From contig JAGHUF010000047.1 in the NCBI GenBank assembly GCA_018064935.1, positions 1 through 64,000 of the forward strand: a stretch of DNA of 64,000 nucleotides. The letters run 5' to 3'. The position numbers and the translations under genes were made by a program. Below are positions 15,878 to 27,864 of this stretch, in pieces. The notes under the pieces are model-generated. The model was not told where the DNA came from. It did not search any database and worked only from the letters and a program-made list of their open reading frames with translations. Within the stretch, counting starts at the first letter, position 1. The number at the start of each line of letters is the position of its first letter. The stretch comes from Candidatus Merdinaster equi (lineage in GTDB: Bacteria; Bacillota; Clostridia; Lachnospirales; Lachnospiraceae).

Positions 15878-16053
15878 CAGAGATAAGTAGGGGGGTAGAT
15901 ATATCCCTATAATTAACGCCATAAACAATCGACATGGAACAAATCAATTCTAATGGGGATTGTCTTCTTGTTTGTATAGCTGATGTCTCTTGGAAATAAT
16001 CAAAATTAAAGAGAAATAGTTTGGTAGTTTAAGTGCATAATTTGGGGAGTATA

Positions 16054-17577
16054 ATGAATAATATTTTTTATTCCATATATGTATGTGAATATAAAGAGGG
16101 AACTGAATATAAGGACATCGAGAGTATAATAGAGAAAACAGGGGCTACTAATAATGCCTATGTCAAGGATCTGTCGGATGCAAGTCCTGAAGAGAGAATA
16201 CATAAATTAAATGCGATTATTTCGGCAGAGAAAATCAGAAGCTATACTCCGAGTGAGGCTGATTTTTATCTTGTGTTTATTAGAACAAGTATAAAGGGCA
16301 GCTATTTTGTTATGCTGTCTGTTACAAGTAAACTTGAGCAATCAACCGCTTTTAAAAGACTATACAACATAGTATTTGCATTCCGTGAAAAGGCAGTATT
16401 TTCTCTCTATGCCGGAAAGAACTCGCTGGGAACAGACAAGGAATACTGGACGAATGTTATCTCCAAAAACAGTGCAATAGGTGAGAAAGAGATACTCAGA
16501 AGCAGTGACGTTGTCATGGAACGTTTTCCGATGGATGAAGAGCTCCAGAATCTGCTCAGCGAAGCGATTGAGACACGTAGGAAAAGTGTAAAAACTATTA
16601 TTCTGAGTGAGCTAGGAAGATTAATATGTCTAGGAGCAAAAGAGGACAGAATTGTAATATATGACGTCCACGATGGTGGCAAGCTCTCTCTTGCACCAGT
16701 ATTCATTGACAGATATCTTGATCGTGAAGCGGGGTACGAATCTGTTAAGAAACAGCTCGTCGGAATAGAGCATCATGACATGTGCACGGATGAGCAGCTG
16801 AGGTTGATTGGAAGGGAGAAGCTGAGTAATACCCCTGCGGTGACTTCATTGTTCATTACAGATAATAAATATGACTATTTCCTATCGTCGATGGAAAAGG
16901 ATGTGGTATATCATCTTGGAGCAATTATGCAGAATGATATTCCTTTTCATGTGCTATTCAGTTTGTGTAAGGGTGATATATCCATTACGTATGTCTATGA
17001 TGAGAAGCTACTTAGAAAACTGAGTCTTGAAGAGATACATAAAAATCTGTGTAAAATGCTTAAGAATAATCTTCTTGGCGCTGAGGAGACGGATGTTCCA
17101 GTTATCAGTGATCAGACAGAAGATGTTAATAAGCAGAGGGCTGAGAGCGTCAAGTATTCAGTGCTCAGACGAATTAGGATGTTTTCCAGCTATGCTGATG
17201 ATGAAGTGCGGCAGCTTGCAAGGTCATTTGAGGTATTATATAAGAGAGAAGAGCAGACCGTATACAATGTTGGAACAAGCGTAGATACGCTGTGCATTCC
17301 AGTTTCAGGCAAGCTGGAAGTGTTTGGTCTGAATAAATCTGAACAGCGTCCACTGTATCTGATAAAACAGGGGGATGTCTTTGGAATAGAAGGTCTCTTC
17401 GAGGATACTCAAAGCTCGGTTGGGTACAAAGTAATTTCTTCCGATTCGGTAATACTTACGATCGATATAGATACTTTTAAGCAGGAAGCCAGAATACATC
17501 CAGAGATATATGCATACCTGCTTGAAATTCAAAGTGAGCGATTGAATAAATTTGAGAGATTGTGGATGACGATATAA
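16054..17577 (+). CDS. Uncharacterised protein with C-terminal cyclic nucleotide-binding-like (cupin) domain
   Basis: C-terminus FSSYADDEVRQLARSFEVLYKREEQTVYNVGTSVDTLCIPVSGKLEVFG...LIKQGDVFGIEGLF; N-terminal ~350 aa unrecognised. Confidence 0.65.
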   Translation: MNNIFYSIYVCEYKEGTEYKDIESIIEKTGATNNAYVKDLSDASPEERIHKLNAIISAEKIRSYTPSEADFYLVFIRTSIKGSYFVMLSVTSKLEQSTAFKRLYNIVFAFREKAVFSLYAGKNSLGTDKEYWTNVISKNSAIGEKEILRSSDVVMERFPMDEELQNLLSEAIETRRKSVKTIILSELGRLICLGAKEDRIVIYDVHDGGKLSLAPVFIDRYLDREAGYESVKKQLVGIEHHDMCTDEQLRLIGREKLSNTPAVTSLFITDNKYDYFLSSMEKDVVYHLGAIMQNDIPFHVLFSLCKGDISITYVYDEKLLRKLSLEEIHKNLCKMLKNNLLGAEETDVPVISDQTEDVNKQRAESVKYSVLRRIRMFSSYADDEVRQLARSFEVLYKREEQTVYNVGTSVDTLCIPVSGKLEVFGLNKSEQRPLYLIKQGDVFGIEGLFEDTQSSVGYKVISSDSVILTIDIDTFKQEARIHPEIYAYLLEIQSERLNKFERLWMTI

Positions 17578-19341: not shown

Positions 19342-19647
19342 ATGGCAAATTTGGAAATTCAAAAGAAAACTGAGGGAACAAAGCTTATCGTAACAGTAAT
19401 TGGACGTATTGATTCTGTTACAGCACCAGAGCTTGAGAGTGATATTAAGGCTTCTGTTGAAAACGTTGATAATCTTGAGATTGATTTTGAGAAGGTTGAG
19501 TATATTTCATCAGCTGGTCTTCGTGTTCTTCTTGCAACACAGAATATTATGGATAAGAGAGGCGGAATGATTCTTAAGAACGTGTCTGAAGAGGTAATGG
19601 AGATTTTTGACGTGACAGGTTTCTCAGACATTCTCACAATTGGATAA
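19342..19647 (+). CDS. STAS domain anti-sigma factor antagonist family protein
   Basis: VIGRIDSVTAPELESDI...VEYISSAGLRVLLATQ...EVMEIFDVTGFSDIL. Confidence 0.93.
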   Translation: MANLEIQKKTEGTKLIVTVIGRIDSVTAPELESDIKASVENVDNLEIDFEKVEYISSAGLRVLLATQNIMDKRGGMILKNVSEEVMEIFDVTGFSDILTIG

Positions 19648-19716
19648 ATACGTTGGCGGGATTGCGGCGATGTTTGGGCCGTAACAGACCATGATACCGT
19701 GATATTATAAATTGTA

Positions 19717-19757
19717 AAAATAGAGCGCATACCATATTGTATGTGCTCTATTTTTTT
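19717..19757 (+). terminator. Rho-independent terminator after STAS gene
   Basis: aaaaatagagcgcatac-catatt-gtatgtgctctattttttt. Confidence 0.9.
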
Positions 19758-19842
19758 ACATATAAAGGTGCTATAATGTTATAGACTTTATGGTTATGGT
19801 ACAAGTGCGATAATATGGTTAATTTAGGGCTTGGGAGATAAT

Positions 19843-20772
19843 ATGACATCAGCAAATCAGAAAAAAGAAAAATATGTCGGCCGATTTAATCAGGTTAAAG
19901 TATATTTTTTGAAATTTGTTCGTATTTTCTTTGCCGAGAAGCAGTGGTTTATGATTGTCATGGCTGCTGTGATTGCCTGGATTGTAGCATTTGTTGTCGG
20001 AAGAGCGTTCTTTGTTACAATGGAAGGAACACTGTTAGGCGCACTTGCGCTTGTGTGTGTGTGCCTGTGGAATGGAGTATTTAACTCTATTCAGGTTGTG
20101 TGTAAAGAGAGGCAGATAATTAAGAGAGAGCATAGAAGCGGTTTGTCTATTACTTCATACGTTGCTTCACATATGCTGATACAGATGATATTGTGTGCGA
20201 TTCAATCGATAGTCACGATATTAGTCCTGGCTATTTGTGGTGTTCATTTTCCAGAAGCAGGTGTAGTTACTCCTGTATTTGTAATAGATTTGTTTGTGAC
20301 AGTGTTTCTGACCACATATGGGGCAGATATGCTTGGACTTATGGTTTCCTGCATTGTGAGAAACACAACACTTGCAATGACGGTAATGCCATTTCTTCTG
20401 ATTGTTCAGCTTGTGTTTGCAGGGGTAGCATTCCCGCTTGCTGGATTTGCAGATAAGGTATCTGAATTGACAGTAACTAAGCATGGTGTAACTGCTATAT
20501 GTTCGATAGGAGATTATAATTCGCTATCTTCCATGTCGATACTTAATCCACTCCGAAAAATTGAATCGAGATCGCAAATAGTAAAAGAAGCTGTGGAAAT
20601 GGTAAGTGAGGAGACGATTGCCCGCGAAACAGCCAAAATGATGCAGGATGAGAACTACAATCCGACTGTAGAGAATGTCTTGATTCAATGGGCAACACTT
20701 ATTATATCCTCGGCAGTGTACGTGCTGATTGGGTGGGTAGCCCTAAAATTTGTTGATAAAGACAGGCGATGA
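19843..20772 (+). CDS. ABC-2 type (ABCG-like) transporter permease
   Basis: Multiple TM segments; ...NGVFNSIQVVCKERQIIKREHRSGLSITSYVASHMLIQMIL... typical of ABCG-type permeases; ATPase gene follows. Confidence 0.82.
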   Translation: MTSANQKKEKYVGRFNQVKVYFLKFVRIFFAEKQWFMIVMAAVIAWIVAFVVGRAFFVTMEGTLLGALALVCVCLWNGVFNSIQVVCKERQIIKREHRSGLSITSYVASHMLIQMILCAIQSIVTILVLAICGVHFPEAGVVTPVFVIDLFVTVFLTTYGADMLGLMVSCIVRNTTLAMTVMPFLLIVQLVFAGVAFPLAGFADKVSELTVTKHGVTAICSIGDYNSLSSMSILNPLRKIESRSQIVKEAVEMVSEETIARETAKMMQDENYNPTVENVLIQWATLIISSAVYVLIGWVALKFVDKDRR

Positions 20773-20825: not shown

Positions 20826-22814
20826 GTGGCGAAGAGTAAAACAACCGACAAGATTATAGAGGTGGCACTTCCTAGGAGGATAGAGTCTAATAATTCTCTG
20901 GAAGTGCAGAAGGAAATAGAGCGGGTTGCATCTGATAACGGCGGCAAAAAACTCAGATTGAATGCAATGGGCACTGAGTATATCTCAAGTGCAGGACTTA
21001 GAGTTCTTCTCACTTTACAGAGAGATGAGATTATTGAAGAGATATGCAATGTTTCAGATTATGTTTATGGAATACTGGATGTCACAGGCTTCTTGGATAT
21101 TCTGAAGGTCAGAAGACATCAAAATGAAGAGGATACTGACCAGGAGAATTTAATTGGCAAGGATGCCTATGGCGAATTGTATAAAAAAGACGATGAGAAT
21201 GTAATTCGTGTATATAAATCACTTAATTCAGAAGAGATTGAAGCTGGTCGGAAATATTCGCAGCTTGCAATGAAGTCTGACATTTCCGTTGCGATATATT
21301 GCGGCAAGGCGAGTACGGCGCAGGGAACTGGTCTGGTTTATGCGGCAGATGGTTCGGAATCTTTAGCTAATCACATTAGAAAGAACCCGAGAGAGCTTGA
21401 CGAGATTCTCAAAGGGTTTGTGGAGCAGATAGAACTCTTCCACAAGAATGAAGAATTAAAAAAGAACGTAAAGAAAATAACTGATTATTACAGAGAACGC
21501 ATGGACGCCAATACAAAGCTTTCTACTGATGTTAAGAGAGTTGCTGGTGAAGTGTTTACCATGCTGTCTCGAAGCAATGCGGTAATCTTTGAGAATGTAA
21601 ACAGCGAAACTGTGCTGTATGAGAATGGAAAGCCGCTGTTTGTTGATCTGTCTCTGCTTAAATATGGTAATCCAGTTTTTGAATTGGCTGGTATGTACAG
21701 GAACAGAATCGAGTTCGGAAAGTTTCTGGGAGAGAGCGAAAACAAGGGACAAAGGACCTGGCAGAGGCTGCTGGAATTATACTTCCCAGACTGCACTGCT
21801 GAGGAAGTATCTCAATTTGATACTGTGGCAAGAAGTCTTGGAAGACTGTTTAGCATCCTATGTTATAACGGAACGAGAAAAGCAGATACAAGTAAGATAA
21901 TAAAGCAGATACAAGAAGACTTTGTTGATAATGAAACTTCGTTCAAAGCTATTATCACTAAGCTTAAGGATATTCAGGGCAAGTCTTCAGACTCAACTGT
22001 GGGGCAACTTCAGATAGATATTAAGGAGAGAACAACCAAGCATTTGTTTGGTAAGAAGACACTCCTCAAAGATATAAAGATGGAAATAAATCCGGGAGAG
22101 ATGGTACTTCTTCTTGGCGGCTCTGGAGCTGGAAAAACGACCTTCCTCAATGCGGTTACCGGATATGAGAAGGCCGATGCTGTAATTAAGAGTGGAGACC
22201 TTGATATTTACAAGGACTACAGTAGCTTGAAACATAAGATTGCCTTCGCGCCTCAGCAGGATATTCTTAGAGATGAGGATACTGTTTATAACACAATAAG
22301 AAATGCAGCTGAGATGAGACTTCCAGTTTCAGCATCCAAGGAAGAGAAAGACAATGCAACAGAGAGGATGCTGGATATATTTGGCCTGAGGGACATGCGA
22401 AATAATGTCATCAGAACATTGAGCGGTGGCCAGAGAAAAAGAGCAAGCATTGCAGTAGAGTTTGTATCTGATCCATTGTTCTTTTTCCTGGATGAACCAG
22501 ATTCCGGACTCGACGGAGTTATGGCCAGATCGCTTATGGAAGATCTTAGAAAGCTGACGGGCGAAGACAAAATTATTATTGTTATTTCGCATACGCCTGA
22601 CAGAGCGATAGAATTGTTCGATAAGGTAATAATTCTGGCGAAGAGTGAGCAGGACGGAGCAGGTCACCTGGCATTCTATGGAAGCCCTGGTGAAGCAAGA
22701 GAGTTCTTCTGCTGCAAGACTATGGAGCAGGTGCTCAAGCAGGTTAATAGAAAATCAGAGGGCGGCGAAGGACGTGCGGATGAGTTTATACGCAAGTACA
22801 GTCATTGGAGATAA
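20826..22814 (+). CDS. STAS - degenerate kinase-like domain - ABC ATPase fusion
   Basis: N-term STAS (TEYISSAGLRVLLTLQ...DVTGFLDIL); middle LIGKDAYGELYKKDDENVIRVYK...FVDLSLLKYGNPVFELAGMY; C-term ABC: LLGGSGAGKTTFLNAV, LSGGQRKRASIA, FFFLDEPDSGLD, VISHTPDRAIE. Confidence 0.88.
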   Translation: MAKSKTTDKIIEVALPRRIESNNSLEVQKEIERVASDNGGKKLRLNAMGTEYISSAGLRVLLTLQRDEIIEEICNVSDYVYGILDVTGFLDILKVRRHQNEEDTDQENLIGKDAYGELYKKDDENVIRVYKSLNSEEIEAGRKYSQLAMKSDISVAIYCGKASTAQGTGLVYAADGSESLANHIRKNPRELDEILKGFVEQIELFHKNEELKKNVKKITDYYRERMDANTKLSTDVKRVAGEVFTMLSRSNAVIFENVNSETVLYENGKPLFVDLSLLKYGNPVFELAGMYRNRIEFGKFLGESENKGQRTWQRLLELYFPDCTAEEVSQFDTVARSLGRLFSILCYNGTRKADTSKIIKQIQEDFVDNETSFKAIITKLKDIQGKSSDSTVGQLQIDIKERTTKHLFGKKTLLKDIKMEINPGEMVLLLGGSGAGKTTFLNAVTGYEKADAVIKSGDLDIYKDYSSLKHKIAFAPQQDILRDEDTVYNTIRNAAEMRLPVSASKEEKDNATERMLDIFGLRDMRNNVIRTLSGGQRKRASIAVEFVSDPLFFFLDEPDSGLDGVMARSLMEDLRKLTGEDKIIIVISHTPDRAIELFDKVIILAKSEQDGAGHLAFYGSPGEAREFFCCKTMEQVLKQVNRKSEGGEGRADEFIRKYSHWR

Positions 22815-22862: not shown

Positions 22863-23849
22863 ATGGAAACAGTAACAATCACACCACAGGAACTTGAAAA
22901 GAGCAAAGACATTCTTCAGAAAATTGCAACTTACTACTACAGCAAGATGGTAGGTCAGCAGAGACTTGGTTCAGCATTACTTATCTCAATTATGTGTAAT
23001 GGACACATTCTTATTGAGTCTGTACCAGGACTTGCAAAGACAACTGCTGCAAAGACAATGACAGAGGCTGTTGGAGGTATGTTCAGCCGTATTCAGTGTA
23101 CACCGGACCTTCTTCCAAGTGATATCATTGGTACTCAGATTCTGAATTATACCAATAATACTTTCGAGACCAAGCTGGGACCTGTTTACGCAAACTTCGT
23201 ACTTCTTGATGAGATTAACCGTTCAAGTGCAAAAACTCAGTCAGCCATGCTCGAAGTCATGCAGGAGCATCAGACAACAATTGCAGGTGTGATCTACCCA
23301 ATGCCTAAGATCTTCACTGTAATTGCAACCCAGAACCCTATTGAGCAGGAAGGAACTTATCTTCTGTCAGAAGCACAGCTCGACCGTTTCTTAATCAAAG
23401 AGACAATGCAGTATCCTTCAATTGATGAAGAGTTTGAAGTTCTTACCAGAATTGAGAATAAAGTATTTGAGCCAGGTTCAGCTGTTGTTACTCTGGATGA
23501 TCTCAAATTCCTTCAGACACTTACTCAGAGAGTATATATTGATCCAGCAGTTAAGAAGTATATTGTTGCAGTTATTAACTGTACAAGAAAGCCTGATCAG
23601 TACATTGATGCAGAGCTGGCTAAATATGTGACAATGGGATCAAGTACCCGTGGTGCTATCGCACTCATGGAAGTTGCGAAAGCAGTTGCACTTATGAATG
23701 GAAGAGCATATGTAATTCCAGAAGATGTAAAAGTAATGATGCACTCAGTTCTTCGTCACAGAATTACCCTGAATTTTGCTGCTGTTGCAGACGGGGTATC
23801 TGAGGATGATATCATCACAGCAATGATGGGAGCAGTTCCTACACCATGA
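22863..23849 (+). CDS. MoxR family AAA ATPase
   Basis: HILIESVPGLAKTTAAKTM, FVLLDEINRSSAKTQSAMLEVMQE, IATQNPIEQEGTYLLSEAQLDRF. Confidence 0.95.
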   Translation: METVTITPQELEKSKDILQKIATYYYSKMVGQQRLGSALLISIMCNGHILIESVPGLAKTTAAKTMTEAVGGMFSRIQCTPDLLPSDIIGTQILNYTNNTFETKLGPVYANFVLLDEINRSSAKTQSAMLEVMQEHQTTIAGVIYPMPKIFTVIATQNPIEQEGTYLLSEAQLDRFLIKETMQYPSIDEEFEVLTRIENKVFEPGSAVVTLDDLKFLQTLTQRVYIDPAVKKYIVAVINCTRKPDQYIDAELAKYVTMGSSTRGAIALMEVAKAVALMNGRAYVIPEDVKVMMHSVLRHRITLNFAAVADGVSEDDIITAMMGAVPTP

Positions 23850-24721
23850 CATTAGACCACATTAATAAAATACGTGGCAATTTTGAAATCTATGCAGCCA
23901 AGAAGGCAGATAATATCCTTGAGGGTTCATACCATTCAGTATTCAAAGGTCGAAGCCTGAACTTTGATGACTTAAGAGAGTATGTTCCAGGTGATAACAT
24001 CAAAGACATTGACTGGAAAGCATCTTCAAGAGCAAGAAACCTCTTGGTAAAAAGATTCATTGCCGAGAAAAAACATAATATTGTTCTCGTAACAGATACT
24101 GGGCGCAAGATGTCTGCGCATAGTACTGATTTGGAGAAAAAGAAAGACATTGCACTTCAGGCCATTGGCACGCTTGGATATATTGCGGCCAAGAACGGAG
24201 ATAATGTTGGGGCATTTTACAATGACGGTGAGCTTCTGCAGCACTACCAGACCAAGCAGGGATTCTATAATCTTGAGAGAATTCTTACTGATATGGACAG
24301 ATGCATGGAGACCAAAACTCCTTATGGAATAGAAAGACCCCTCGAGTATATTCTTAAAAATATTTCCAGAAGATTGATCATCATAATCGTATCTGATATA
24401 GAGGGTATGGCAAGAATTGATGATTCAGTGCTGAAGCAGTTGTGTGTTCGCCACGATGTTGTTTGCGCGCAGGTAAGTGATGCTAACTACATTGGAGGCA
24501 ATCCCTATGAGGTTAATGGCGAGAGTTATGTACCGCCATATATTGCCCATAATAAAAAACTTCTGAAGATGGAACAGAAGTTGAAAAATGATAGAAACGA
24601 CGAGATTGAGAAGAAATTTCTTCGCAATGGAGTAGTATCTGTTCAGATTGATTCTGAGCAGGATGTAACTGAGAAACTTATAGAGCTGATGGAAAGGCAT
24701 AAATATGCGTCTCGCCACTAA
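23846..24721 (+). CDS. DUF58 family protein
   Basis: GSYHSVFKGRSLNFDDLREYVPGDNIKDIDWKASSRARNLLVKRF. Confidence 0.94.
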   Translation: MTLDHINKIRGNFEIYAAKKADNILEGSYHSVFKGRSLNFDDLREYVPGDNIKDIDWKASSRARNLLVKRFIAEKKHNIVLVTDTGRKMSAHSTDLEKKKDIALQAIGTLGYIAAKNGDNVGAFYNDGELLQHYQTKQGFYNLERILTDMDRCMETKTPYGIERPLEYILKNISRRLIIIIVSDIEGMARIDDSVLKQLCVRHDVVCAQVSDANYIGGNPYEVNGESYVPPYIAHNKKLLKMEQKLKNDRNDEIEKKFLRNGVVSVQIDSEQDVTEKLIELMERHKYASRH

Positions 24722-25202
24722 TTTGCAGGATTATTTTACAGTTGATTTACAGGGACCACAGTCATATTCTATTGTTCCGATTATTATTACTGTGCTTGTG
24801 CTTTTTGCGAGCTTTGTTGCTCTTTTATTCATTTATTTAGTAAAGAAAGCAAAACAGCGTCCAAAGAAAGTATTTGTTCCAAAGAAGGTAAAACTTCCAC
24901 TTCCTGTACTCAAAGAGAAATATCTCTATATGACTACGGAGCTGGAGGACAGATTCCGTGCTGGAAAAATCGATGAAAAGTTTGCATACGAAGAGCTCAG
25001 CTCACTTACAAGGCACTTTGTTTTTGATGCAACAGATGTTAAGGTACAGAATTATTCTCTTGAGGAAATTGCCAGAATGGGTATGCCAGGACTTAATGAG
25101 TTGATTAAGGAGTGCTATCCACCAGAATTTAAACCAGGTGAAAAAGGTGATATTCTGGCATCTCTCGATCATGCAAGGAGGATTGTAGCGCAGTGGAATT
25201 AA
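24705..25202 (+). CDS. Single-TM protein of MoxR/vWA operon (DUF4381-like position and architecture)
   Basis: One TM, then basic linker and helical domain; overlaps neighbours at both ends (translational coupling). Confidence 0.6.
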   Translation: MRLATNLQDYFTVDLQGPQSYSIVPIIITVLVLFASFVALLFIYLVKKAKQRPKKVFVPKKVKLPLPVLKEKYLYMTTELEDRFRAGKIDEKFAYEELSSLTRHFVFDATDVKVQNYSLEEIARMGMPGLNELIKECYPPEFKPGEKGDILASLDHARRIVAQWN

Positions 25203-27079
25203 CATATCCTTGGGTCTTATACATAGGTATCCCGATAGTATTTCTTTTGGCATTTCTAGTATTCAAAAGAAGCCAGAAATATAAGGATGGAAGGCGAGTC
25301 GTTGGTGCAGGATACCTCGAAGAAACTCCTTATTTCAAAAAAATAAAAAGACGTTACAAGCTTCTTAAGCTTATGCCACTTGTTGGTATTTTACTATGTC
25401 TAGTTCTTGTGACGTTCATGATTGCAAGACCGATTAAGGTTGAGACAATTAATGAAGAGGCGCATAACAGAGATATTTTCTTATGCATGGATATATCTGA
25501 TTCCATGGATGAGGTAAATCTGGTTATCTGTAATCAGCTTAAGGAATTAGTATCAGAGCTGGAGGGTGAGCGCTTTGGTATCTCAATCTTCAACGGTCAG
25601 TCAGTTCTTTTGGTTCCTCTTACATCGGATTATGATTATGTAATGGAAACCCTCAACACATTGAGTGAGGTTTTTGAGTATAGCACATCCTATACAGGTC
25701 TGTTCTATGATTTCGATTATGAGATGTACTACTACAAGTATGAGGGAACTCTGTGTGACAGAGGTAGTTCATTTATCGGTGAAGGACTTGCATCTTGTTT
25801 ATACAGTTTCACTGATTTAGAGGAGGATCCTGATAGAACAAGACTTATTATTTTCACAACAGATAATGAGCTTAATGGTGAGCCTTTAGTAACTCTTAAA
25901 GATGCGGCAGGATACTGCAAGAAGAGAGGTGTAAGGGTATATGGCCTGACACCTGGAAATGTATATGAGCAGTCCATTTTCCAGCCGGCAATGGAGGACA
26001 CAGGTGGTGGCTATTATGAAGTAGGCGATCCTGATGCGATTAATGATATCCTTTCTGCTATTAGAAGAACTGGTACAAATGTAACTGAGAATATCAAGAC
26101 AGTAATCACTGATCACAAGGAAATACTTATTTTTACAACTATTCTCCTTGATGTGATTTTCATTCTCATGGTTCTCTTGCCATATATCATGCTTCATGGA
26201 AAGAGTGTAGTGAATCACGTTATTCAGGGAATTGCACTTTTGCTTGTAATAGCTTTGAATATCAGATTGATGGCAGCTCAGGAAGAGGTATCAGAATATA
26301 CAGGCAACACAGATGTAATGTTCGTTGTGGATAACACGATAAGTATGCTTGCGGAAGACTACAATGGAAATGGTCGACGTATAGATGCGGTTAAGGAAGA
26401 TATTGCTTATATAATGGAGCAATTCCCGGGCGCAAGATATTCGGTAATATCCTTTGCCAACGATGCCAGAAGGCTGATTCCATATACGACTGATATAACA
26501 TCTGTTGAGCAGGCACTTAAGTCATTGAATGGATTGACTAAGAGTAACGCAAATGGAACAGGACTTAATGCACCTCTTTCAGTTATGAAGCCTGCACTCA
26601 AGAGTGGATATGAGCGGGGTAACAGACAGCTGGTATTCTTCATAAGTGATGGCGAAATTACTGATGATAAGCAGCAAAATATTAGTAATTACGGAGTTCT
26701 TGCTGAGTTCATCGACGGCGGAGCTGTTCTGGGATATGGAACAGAGCAGGGTGGTAAGATGCAGGTTCTTTCGTATGCATCGGACGAGGATCCGCAGTAT
26801 CTGCAATATTATGATGGTGGATATAAGGATGCAGTTTCTGTTATTGATGAGGCGAACTTACAGTTTATTGCCAAGGGATTAAAGGTGCCATATATCCATA
26901 TGACGGATCAGAGCAAGATTTATCCGGAGGTAATCAAGCTTGCAAATGATATAGATGTAGACAGAGGAAAGAATGATGATGAAGAAGGAACGAATATTCC
27001 AGGATTGTTATACTTCCTGACAATTCCTCTTTTCCCTGCACTTGCATGGGAATACATTTATGTTAAGAAGAGACTCTAG
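25193..27079 (+). CDS. Membrane protein with two von Willebrand factor A domains (BatA/BatB-like fusion)
   Basis: vWA1 IFLCMDISDSMDEVN; vWA2 DVMFVVDNTISMLAEDYNGNGRRIDAVKEDI; TM segments at N-terminus, between domains and C-terminus. Confidence 0.88.
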   Translation: MELTYPWVLYIGIPIVFLLAFLVFKRSQKYKDGRRVVGAGYLEETPYFKKIKRRYKLLKLMPLVGILLCLVLVTFMIARPIKVETINEEAHNRDIFLCMDISDSMDEVNLVICNQLKELVSELEGERFGISIFNGQSVLLVPLTSDYDYVMETLNTLSEVFEYSTSYTGLFYDFDYEMYYYKYEGTLCDRGSSFIGEGLASCLYSFTDLEEDPDRTRLIIFTTDNELNGEPLVTLKDAAGYCKKRGVRVYGLTPGNVYEQSIFQPAMEDTGGGYYEVGDPDAINDILSAIRRTGTNVTENIKTVITDHKEILIFTTILLDVIFILMVLLPYIMLHGKSVVNHVIQGIALLLVIALNIRLMAAQEEVSEYTGNTDVMFVVDNTISMLAEDYNGNGRRIDAVKEDIAYIMEQFPGARYSVISFANDARRLIPYTTDITSVEQALKSLNGLTKSNANGTGLNAPLSVMKPALKSGYERGNRQLVFFISDGEITDDKQQNISNYGVLAEFIDGGAVLGYGTEQGGKMQVLSYASDEDPQYLQYYDGGYKDAVSVIDEANLQFIAKGLKVPYIHMTDQSKIYPEVIKLANDIDVDRGKNDDEEGTNIPGLLYFLTIPLFPALAWEYIYVKKRL

Positions 27080-27084
27080 AAAGG

Positions 27085-27864
27085 GTGAAAATAGTGAACT
27101 GGTTAAAACGATCGCTTATTGCTGTATATGTAATTGCAATATTGTTCTTGGCAAAGCTGGTATTCTCCATGGCTTTCAATGAGTATATAGTGGACCGCTA
27201 TAAAAAGGGTGATTACTCTGTGAATGCGACCCTTCTCACTTATTTGAACTGGCCAGAACCAGAGGTTGCCCTGTACAATAATGCGCAGCTGTATTACAGA
27301 AGATGTCAGTATCCTGAAGCAATAGAATCATATCAGCAGGCTTTGGATTTGAATCTGGCTGAGGGAAAAGATTGTGATACAAGAATAGGATTGGCGCTAT
27401 CCATGATAATGAATCTGGGTGACGATTATGCTCTTATTGAGAATATTGATAACTCAATTCAGGTTCTTGAGCAGGCGAGGGATATTCTGCTTGCAAATGG
27501 TTGTGCGACAGATGAAGACGATGGACATCATGAGGAAGCCCAGACTCTTAAAAATGAAATTGATAAACTGATTGAGGAGCTCAAACAGCAACAGCAGGAG
27601 CAGCAGAATCAGGATCAAAATCAGGACCAGAACCAGGATCAGAACCAGGATCAGAATCAGGACCAAAATCAGGATCAGAACCAGGACCAAGATCAGAACC
27701 AGGACCAGCAGCAGAGCCAGGAAGATCAGAAGGAGCAGCAGCTCAAAGATCAGCTCCAGGAGAATCAGGGCGAGGCTTATCAGCAGAGACAGCAGGAACA
27801 GCAGCAGGTTGATGAATGGGAGAATGAAGGCGGCGGTGGCGGCTCCTATGGCAAGATTTGGTAA
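27085..27864 (+). CDS. TPR-type membrane protein (BatC-like) with Gln/Asp/Asn repeat tail
   Basis: N-term TM; NAQLYYRRCQYPEAIESYQQALDLN TPR; (QDQN)n tail; GTG start after gaaagg RBS. Confidence 0.75.
   Translation: MKIVNWLKRSLIAVYVIAILFLAKLVFSMAFNEYIVDRYKKGDYSVNATLLTYLNWPEPEVALYNNAQLYYRRCQYPEAIESYQQALDLNLAEGKDCDTRIGLALSMIMNLGDDYALIENIDNSIQVLEQARDILLANGCATDEDDGHHEEAQTLKNEIDKLIEELKQQQQEQQNQDQNQDQNQDQNQDQNQDQNQDQNQDQDQNQDQQQSQEDQKEQQLKDQLQENQGEAYQQRQQEQQQVDEWENEGGGGGSYGKIW
27604..27711. repeat. 12-bp in-frame repeat encoding Gln-Asp-Gln-Asn
   Basis: caggatcagaac / caggaccaaaat variants in tandem. Confidence 0.85.

Follow-up and report, generated by a model that had tools for sequence, protein, structure and literature searches.

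A hallmark of the MlaFB complex of Escherichia coli is contact between a STAS protein and the helical subdomain of an ABC nucleotide-binding domain (NBD). Binding of the STAS protein MlaB to the ABC NBD is established and is weakened by a phosphomimetic at the site equivalent to the STAS phosphosite, and for MlaB a role of STAS phosphorylation in regulating ABC ATPases has been raised as a question but not settled (PMC7367683). A STAS domain fused to an Mce/Mla permease (DUF140) has been reported (PMC1810536), and Rv1747 of Mycobacterium tuberculosis is an FHA-FHA-ABC exporter (PMC5549992, PMC3908365). In the literature that we searched, nothing was found for STAS, FHA, ABC transporter and pseudokinase combined, nor for TIGR02172, and no description was found of the STAS-APH family considered below, in which active-looking APH-fold kinases are tied to partner-switching genes. 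Here we describe a gene from the window (the whole stretch of 64,000 nucleotides analysed) whose product joins a STAS domain, a degenerate APH-like kinase and an ABC ATPase; the fusion is a new combination of domains that are themselves known.

The gene is one uninterrupted open reading frame with a GTG start, laid out as follows (all on the plus strand):

20826..22814, plus strand: gene for the fusion of STAS domain, predicted APH-fold pseudokinase and ABC ATPase, 662 aa
20838..21119, plus strand: STAS domain, aa 5-98 (Pfam and alignment of 49 relatives)
20988..20990, plus strand: codon of Ser55 within YISSAGL (alignment of relatives)
21150..21860, plus strand: predicted APH-fold pseudokinase, aa 109-345 (profile and alignment of relatives)
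21207..21209, plus strand: Arg128, at the site of the invariant catalytic Lys (Lys in 49/49 relatives)
21588..21611, plus strand: FENVNSET, aa 255-262, at the site of the catalytic-loop HGDxHxxN (alignment)
21645..21647, plus strand: Asp274, the only APH metal-site Asp kept (Asp in 49/49 relatives)
22008..22811, plus strand: ABC ATPase (NBD), aa 395-662 (full motif set)

A preliminary description of the DNA had called a STAS domain, a kinase-like middle region and an ABC ATPase, and all three calls hold when assessed with Pfam, NCBIfam and a family profile. The Pfam STAS model (PF01740) matched aa 5-98 with 24.9 bits, above its gathering cut-off of 22.6, and ABC_tran matched aa 414-559 with 87.6 bits (E 1.4e-24), also above cut-off. 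The middle domain of ~240 aa, taken alone, matched no Pfam family and had no match in a phmmer search against the PDB; in NCBIfam, TIGR02172 (APH-like) matched this region at E 5.6e-11 with 42.7 bits, below its curated cut-off of 228.2. A profile of the kinase part was made from 49 STAS-APH homologs, taken from genomes within the source organism's family and class, with the window protein left out; it matched the window domain at E 3.3e-34 over positions 5-245 of 254 and reported none of 200 shuffled versions of that domain. The family profile also matched known structures of hygromycin-B, choline and aminoglycoside kinases, Pfam APH (PF01636) was matched by all 37 homologs scanned, and the alignment of the homologs with the window protein runs from the STAS domain to about residue 378. 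Single-sequence AlphaFold2 of aa 101-393, run with no alignment, gave a poor model (mean pLDDT 44.5, pTM 0.42), and a PDB fold search with this model returned nothing below E 0.001, the matches listed being meaningless. Because structure prediction without an alignment was poor, the APH fold rests on sequence homology, and it is the family profile that bears out the proposed resemblance of the middle region to aminoglycoside phosphotransferases and choline kinases. Of 38 members of the STAS-APH kinase alignment that were scanned, 22 also matched TCAD9 (ternary complex associated domain 9; best E 3.4e-7).

Among the relatives, Lys128, His255, Asp257 and Asp274 are each kept in 49/49, and Asn262 and Glu141 each in 48/49. 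The window protein carries K128R, H255F, D257N, N262T and E141G, with Asp274 alone surviving; a P-loop glycine is altered as well, and 14 of the 33 family-conserved kinase positions are kept (the lowest relative keeps 71%). The catalytic Lys and the HGDxHxxN motif of APH-type kinases are thus both absent, their places being taken by R128 and by FENVNSET, which alignment with homologs sets against HGDxHxxN just as the preliminary description had done. Since five catalytic or core residues have been lost, the middle domain is, as judged from its residues, a pseudokinase, that is, a homolog in fold and no active member, and the earlier suspicion that the kinase is inactive gains support from the retention of these residues in 48-49 of 49 relatives. 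The STAS domain has 15 positions with conservation of 90% or more in the 49 relatives, and the window protein keeps 13 of them, including Ser55. This residue, proposed earlier as a candidate phospho-acceptor within YISSAGLRVLL, is conserved in 48/48 relatives having a residue at the site and corresponds in alignment to Ser58 of SpoIIAA, the residue phosphorylated there. The retention of Asp274, together with a predicted fold that matches APH kinases along its full length, would suit a ligand sensor, in which the APH-fold domain binds a nucleotide or small molecule without catalysis and gates the ATPase, the STAS domain serving as a dimer or assembly element. However, the altered Lys, alpha-C Glu, catalytic loop and P-loop glycine argue against ordinary ATP binding and no ligand is known, and we consider such a sensor improbable.

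The ATPase carries all five motif types (Walker A GGSGAGKT, 431-438; Q-loop APQQD, 475-479; signature LSGGQ, 532-536; Walker B LFFFLDEP, 551-558; H-loop ISHT, 587-590) and is complete, as first described. Its best NCBIfam match is TIGR00955 (ABCG pigment precursor), scoring 163.7 bits (cut-off 736.35); it resembles ABCG and lies outside the membership of that model, and the ABCG-like assignment made earlier stands in this sense. Immediately upstream of the fusion gene, and separated from it by 53 bp, is a second transporter gene:

19831..20772, plus strand: ABC-2 permease, 313 aa, putative membrane partner (ABC2_membrane, E 2.3e-14)

The ATPase has close relatives, with 40-60% identity, in 22 of the 397 family genomes, and most adjoin a permease of the window type; the permeases adjoining NBD relatives are 35-52% identical to that of the window, with the order reversed so that the ATPase comes first. 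The permease at 19831-20772 therefore probably pairs with the fusion ATPase as a two-gene ABC-2/ABCG-like exporter. A scan of genome contigs gave two distant ABC matches only; one ABC ATPase relative (L007, G142:C112:686-1426) has an in-frame TGA inside the match.

The N-termini of the ATPase clade vary. Tandem FHA domains are present in L064, L078 and L077, weak or degenerate FHA domains in L058 and L059 and, by eye, in L060 and L062; other N-termini are hydrophobic, of 165-195 aa with about 3-5 membrane stretches, and such a region (~165-195 aa) replaces the FHA part in L061, L063, L066, L069, L076 and L079. In the window protein Pfam matched no FHA domain. The likeness to mycobacterial Rv1747 drawn in the preliminary description was well chosen, as the nearest ATPases do carry tandem FHA domains, and more distant relatives are single-chain FHA-FHA-ABC-permease proteins of the Rv1747 type. 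Some FHA members adjoin genes for Ser/Thr kinases (L077, L078) or PP2C phosphatases (L064, L080). In a tree of the NBD, the shortest paths from the window protein lead to FHA or degenerate-FHA members, the fork itself being unresolved. The FHA-type N-termini and the tree position of the NBD relatives make it likely that an ancestral N-terminal region of FHA type was replaced by the STAS-pseudokinase region.

No other match to STAS-APH within an ORF of fusion length was found in 397 genomes of the family, 391 of the class and 399 of the phylum (these sets overlap, and the first-look filter may miss some matches), and viral contigs gave no match. The fusion is thus known from one genome, a single draft that is 75% complete and in 113 contigs, so that its conservation cannot be shown. 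Both the draft state of the source and the lack of a second instance in those overlapping sets would suit an artefact of assembly or a decaying fusion without regulatory function. Against this, the frame is open across 662 codons, the STAS and NBD motifs are intact, and GC content is little changed across the junction (0.403, 0.406, 0.441); moreover, the permease on the STAS side of the junction is of the kind typical of the ATPase clade, and a join would need to have paired the two by chance. An assembly join is unlikely because of this permease, the open frame and the little-changed composition, and we regard artefact and decay taken together as highly improbable.

Of the 397 family genomes, 38 encode STAS-APH proteins, and further families of the class have them too. 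A separate STAS gene lies no more than 4.5 kb from the STAS-APH gene at 21/47 loci, a SpoIIE-type phosphatase gene at 19/47 and an RsbW-like HATPase_c_2 gene at 11/47, and at 12/47 a HATPase is fused to the module itself, C-terminal to STAS-APH, which is the position of the NBD in the window protein. Overall, at least one partner-switching part, adjoining within 4.5 kb or fused, accompanies 26/47 STAS-APH loci versus 0/29 loci of ABC relatives; the remaining 21/47 are without such a neighbour, the stand-alone copy in the window's own genome included. Pfam confirmed SpoIIE in 7 neighbours, of which 4 have HATPase_c_2 attached. With partner-switching parts at 26/47 loci, the STAS-APH module belongs, at least often, to partner-switching systems. 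STAS-APH-HATPase_c_2 fusions with intact kinase motifs adjoin SpoIIE phosphatases and STAS genes (L088:7527-9128, minus strand), and further loci with this fusion are L126, L128, L137, L150, L153, L157-L159 and others. The stand-alone STAS-APH gene of the own genome (G000:C9:8468-9625, L090) lies between a GH42 beta-galactosidase gene and an iron-alcohol-dehydrogenase-like gene, with partner-switching neighbours absent.

Besides the permease, the fusion gene is flanked by the following features:

19342..19647, plus strand: free-standing STAS protein of the anti-sigma-antagonist family (TIGR00377, E 2.2e-21)
19716..19755, plus strand: hairpin with a T-run, downstream of the free-standing STAS gene (by folding: stem of 17 bp, -22 kcal/mol, z -9.4)
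22863..27864, plus strand: Bat-like cluster of MoxR ATPase, DUF58, 165-aa ORF, double-VWA and TPR genes (Pfam/NCBIfam)

The free-standing STAS protein is a possible partner-switching mate of the fusion, and its gene is the only neighbour of that kind, no gene for an RsbW-like kinase or phosphatase being found around the fusion. The hairpin is a probable terminator, which would separate the STAS gene from the permease gene; scans for promoters and terminators gave matches at chance level only. Downstream, the MoxR gene begins 48 bp after the fusion gene, and the Bat-like cluster possibly belongs to the same operon. Within this cluster, 25193-27079 encodes a single protein with two VWA domains whose halves match BatA-type and BatB-type models, and the TPR protein encoded by 27085-27864 contains a tract of low-complexity QDQN repeats. 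The 514-aa product of 16033-17577 ends in a cyclic-nucleotide-binding domain, and its ~400 N-terminal residues match no Pfam family. Elsewhere in the own genome there is one clear RsbW-like protein (contig C82), and SpoIIE-type phosphatase domains score above cut-off at two places, both away from the fusion locus.

We propose that the gene product is an exporter motor in which an FHA-type input was swapped for a STAS-pseudokinase input and which is switched by phosphorylation of Ser55, a reading that we hold to be about evenly balanced between right and wrong. Together with the permease at 19831-20772, the product would form an ABC-2/ABCG-like exporter encoded by two genes, in which it supplies the motor. 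In its ancestors the N-terminal region was most likely of FHA type and read phosphopeptides, as in the nearest ATPases, and a whole STAS-APH signalling protein would have taken the place of that region. The kinase half, its catalytic residues lost, most likely became a rigid relay or docking platform between the STAS domain and the ATPase. An RsbW-like kinase would most likely add a phosphate to Ser55 and a SpoIIE-type phosphatase remove it, and binding or release of the RsbW-like kinase, or of another STAS partner, would alter ATPase activity. Since the STAS-APH family is tied to RsbW-like kinases and SpoIIE phosphatases by neighbourhood and by fusion, partner switching is plausible for the window protein. 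The partner-switching gate suggested in the preliminary description has thus gained in plausibility from the family's RsbW and SpoIIE neighbours and fusions, whereas the gating of the transporter by the STAS-pseudokinase input is a step that we infer.

The main rival to this proposal is direct contact as in MlaB, in which the NBD of the fusion would be stabilised, structurally or allosterically, by its own STAS domain bound to it in a fixed manner, with no phosphorylation cycle and no outside kinase. The MlaF NBD depends on MlaB to be stable and to assemble, and phosphorylation of MlaB has not been demonstrated (PMC7367683), and the absence of a kinase gene beside the fusion agrees with such an arrangement. 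However, the STAS domain of the fusion comes from a family tied to RsbW-like kinases and SpoIIE phosphatases, Ser55 is retained while the kinase half decays, the NBD is nearer to FHA-type exporters than to Mla, and the adjacent permease is of ABC-2 type and not MlaE; on these grounds we think that a fixed stabiliser is doubtful. Returning to the switched motor, the comparisons suggest that a switch usually wired to gene expression acts here directly on a pump. The fuller history, in which the exporter left control by FHA domains and Hanks-type kinases for STAS/RsbW/SpoIIE partner switching, the whole STAS-APH protein being swapped in and its kinase then dying, is more tentative and in our view somewhat less likely to be right than wrong.

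If true, the proposal would mean that the input of a phospho-regulated exporter is modular and exchangeable, and that STAS partner switching, instead of controlling transcription, can directly control a transporter motor, transport itself being the direct output of the switch and the pseudokinase its relay. The fusion would also be a test case for the question, raised with MlaB, of whether STAS phosphorylation regulates ABC ATPases (PMC7367683). Like MlaFB, it combines an ABC ATPase with an attached STAS domain that has a Ser/Thr at the phosphosite position; unlike MlaFB (PMC7367683), the STAS domain is covalently fused by way of a pseudokinase, belongs to a family linked to partner switching and serves a putative ABC-2 exporter. 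The STAS-DUF140 proteins (PMC1810536) likewise join STAS to an ABC transporter subunit, but there it is the permease, whereas in the window it is the ATPase, reached through the pseudokinase. With Rv1747 the window protein shares the design of an ABCG-type exporter ATPase with an N-terminal phospho-signalling region, and relatives of its NBD share the FHA-FHA-ABC plan; in contrast to Rv1747, its input is STAS plus pseudokinase instead of FHA, its permease is a separate gene, and its neighbourhood lacks a Ser/Thr kinase gene like pknF. The first ~378 residues align over their full length with clostridial STAS-APH proteins, whether stand-alone (TIGR02172-like) or fused to HATPase_c_2, and the fused ones also carry an effector at the C-terminus, but only in the window protein is the kinase degenerate and the effector an ABC ATPase. 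Finally, as in the SpoIIAA/RsbV - SpoIIAB/RsbW - SpoIIE/RsbU systems, the STAS Ser is conserved, and the neighbours of STAS-APH genes include RsbW-like and SpoIIE-type proteins; unlike in those systems, the partners are not encoded beside the window gene, and the switch would presumably act on a transporter motor in place of a sigma factor.
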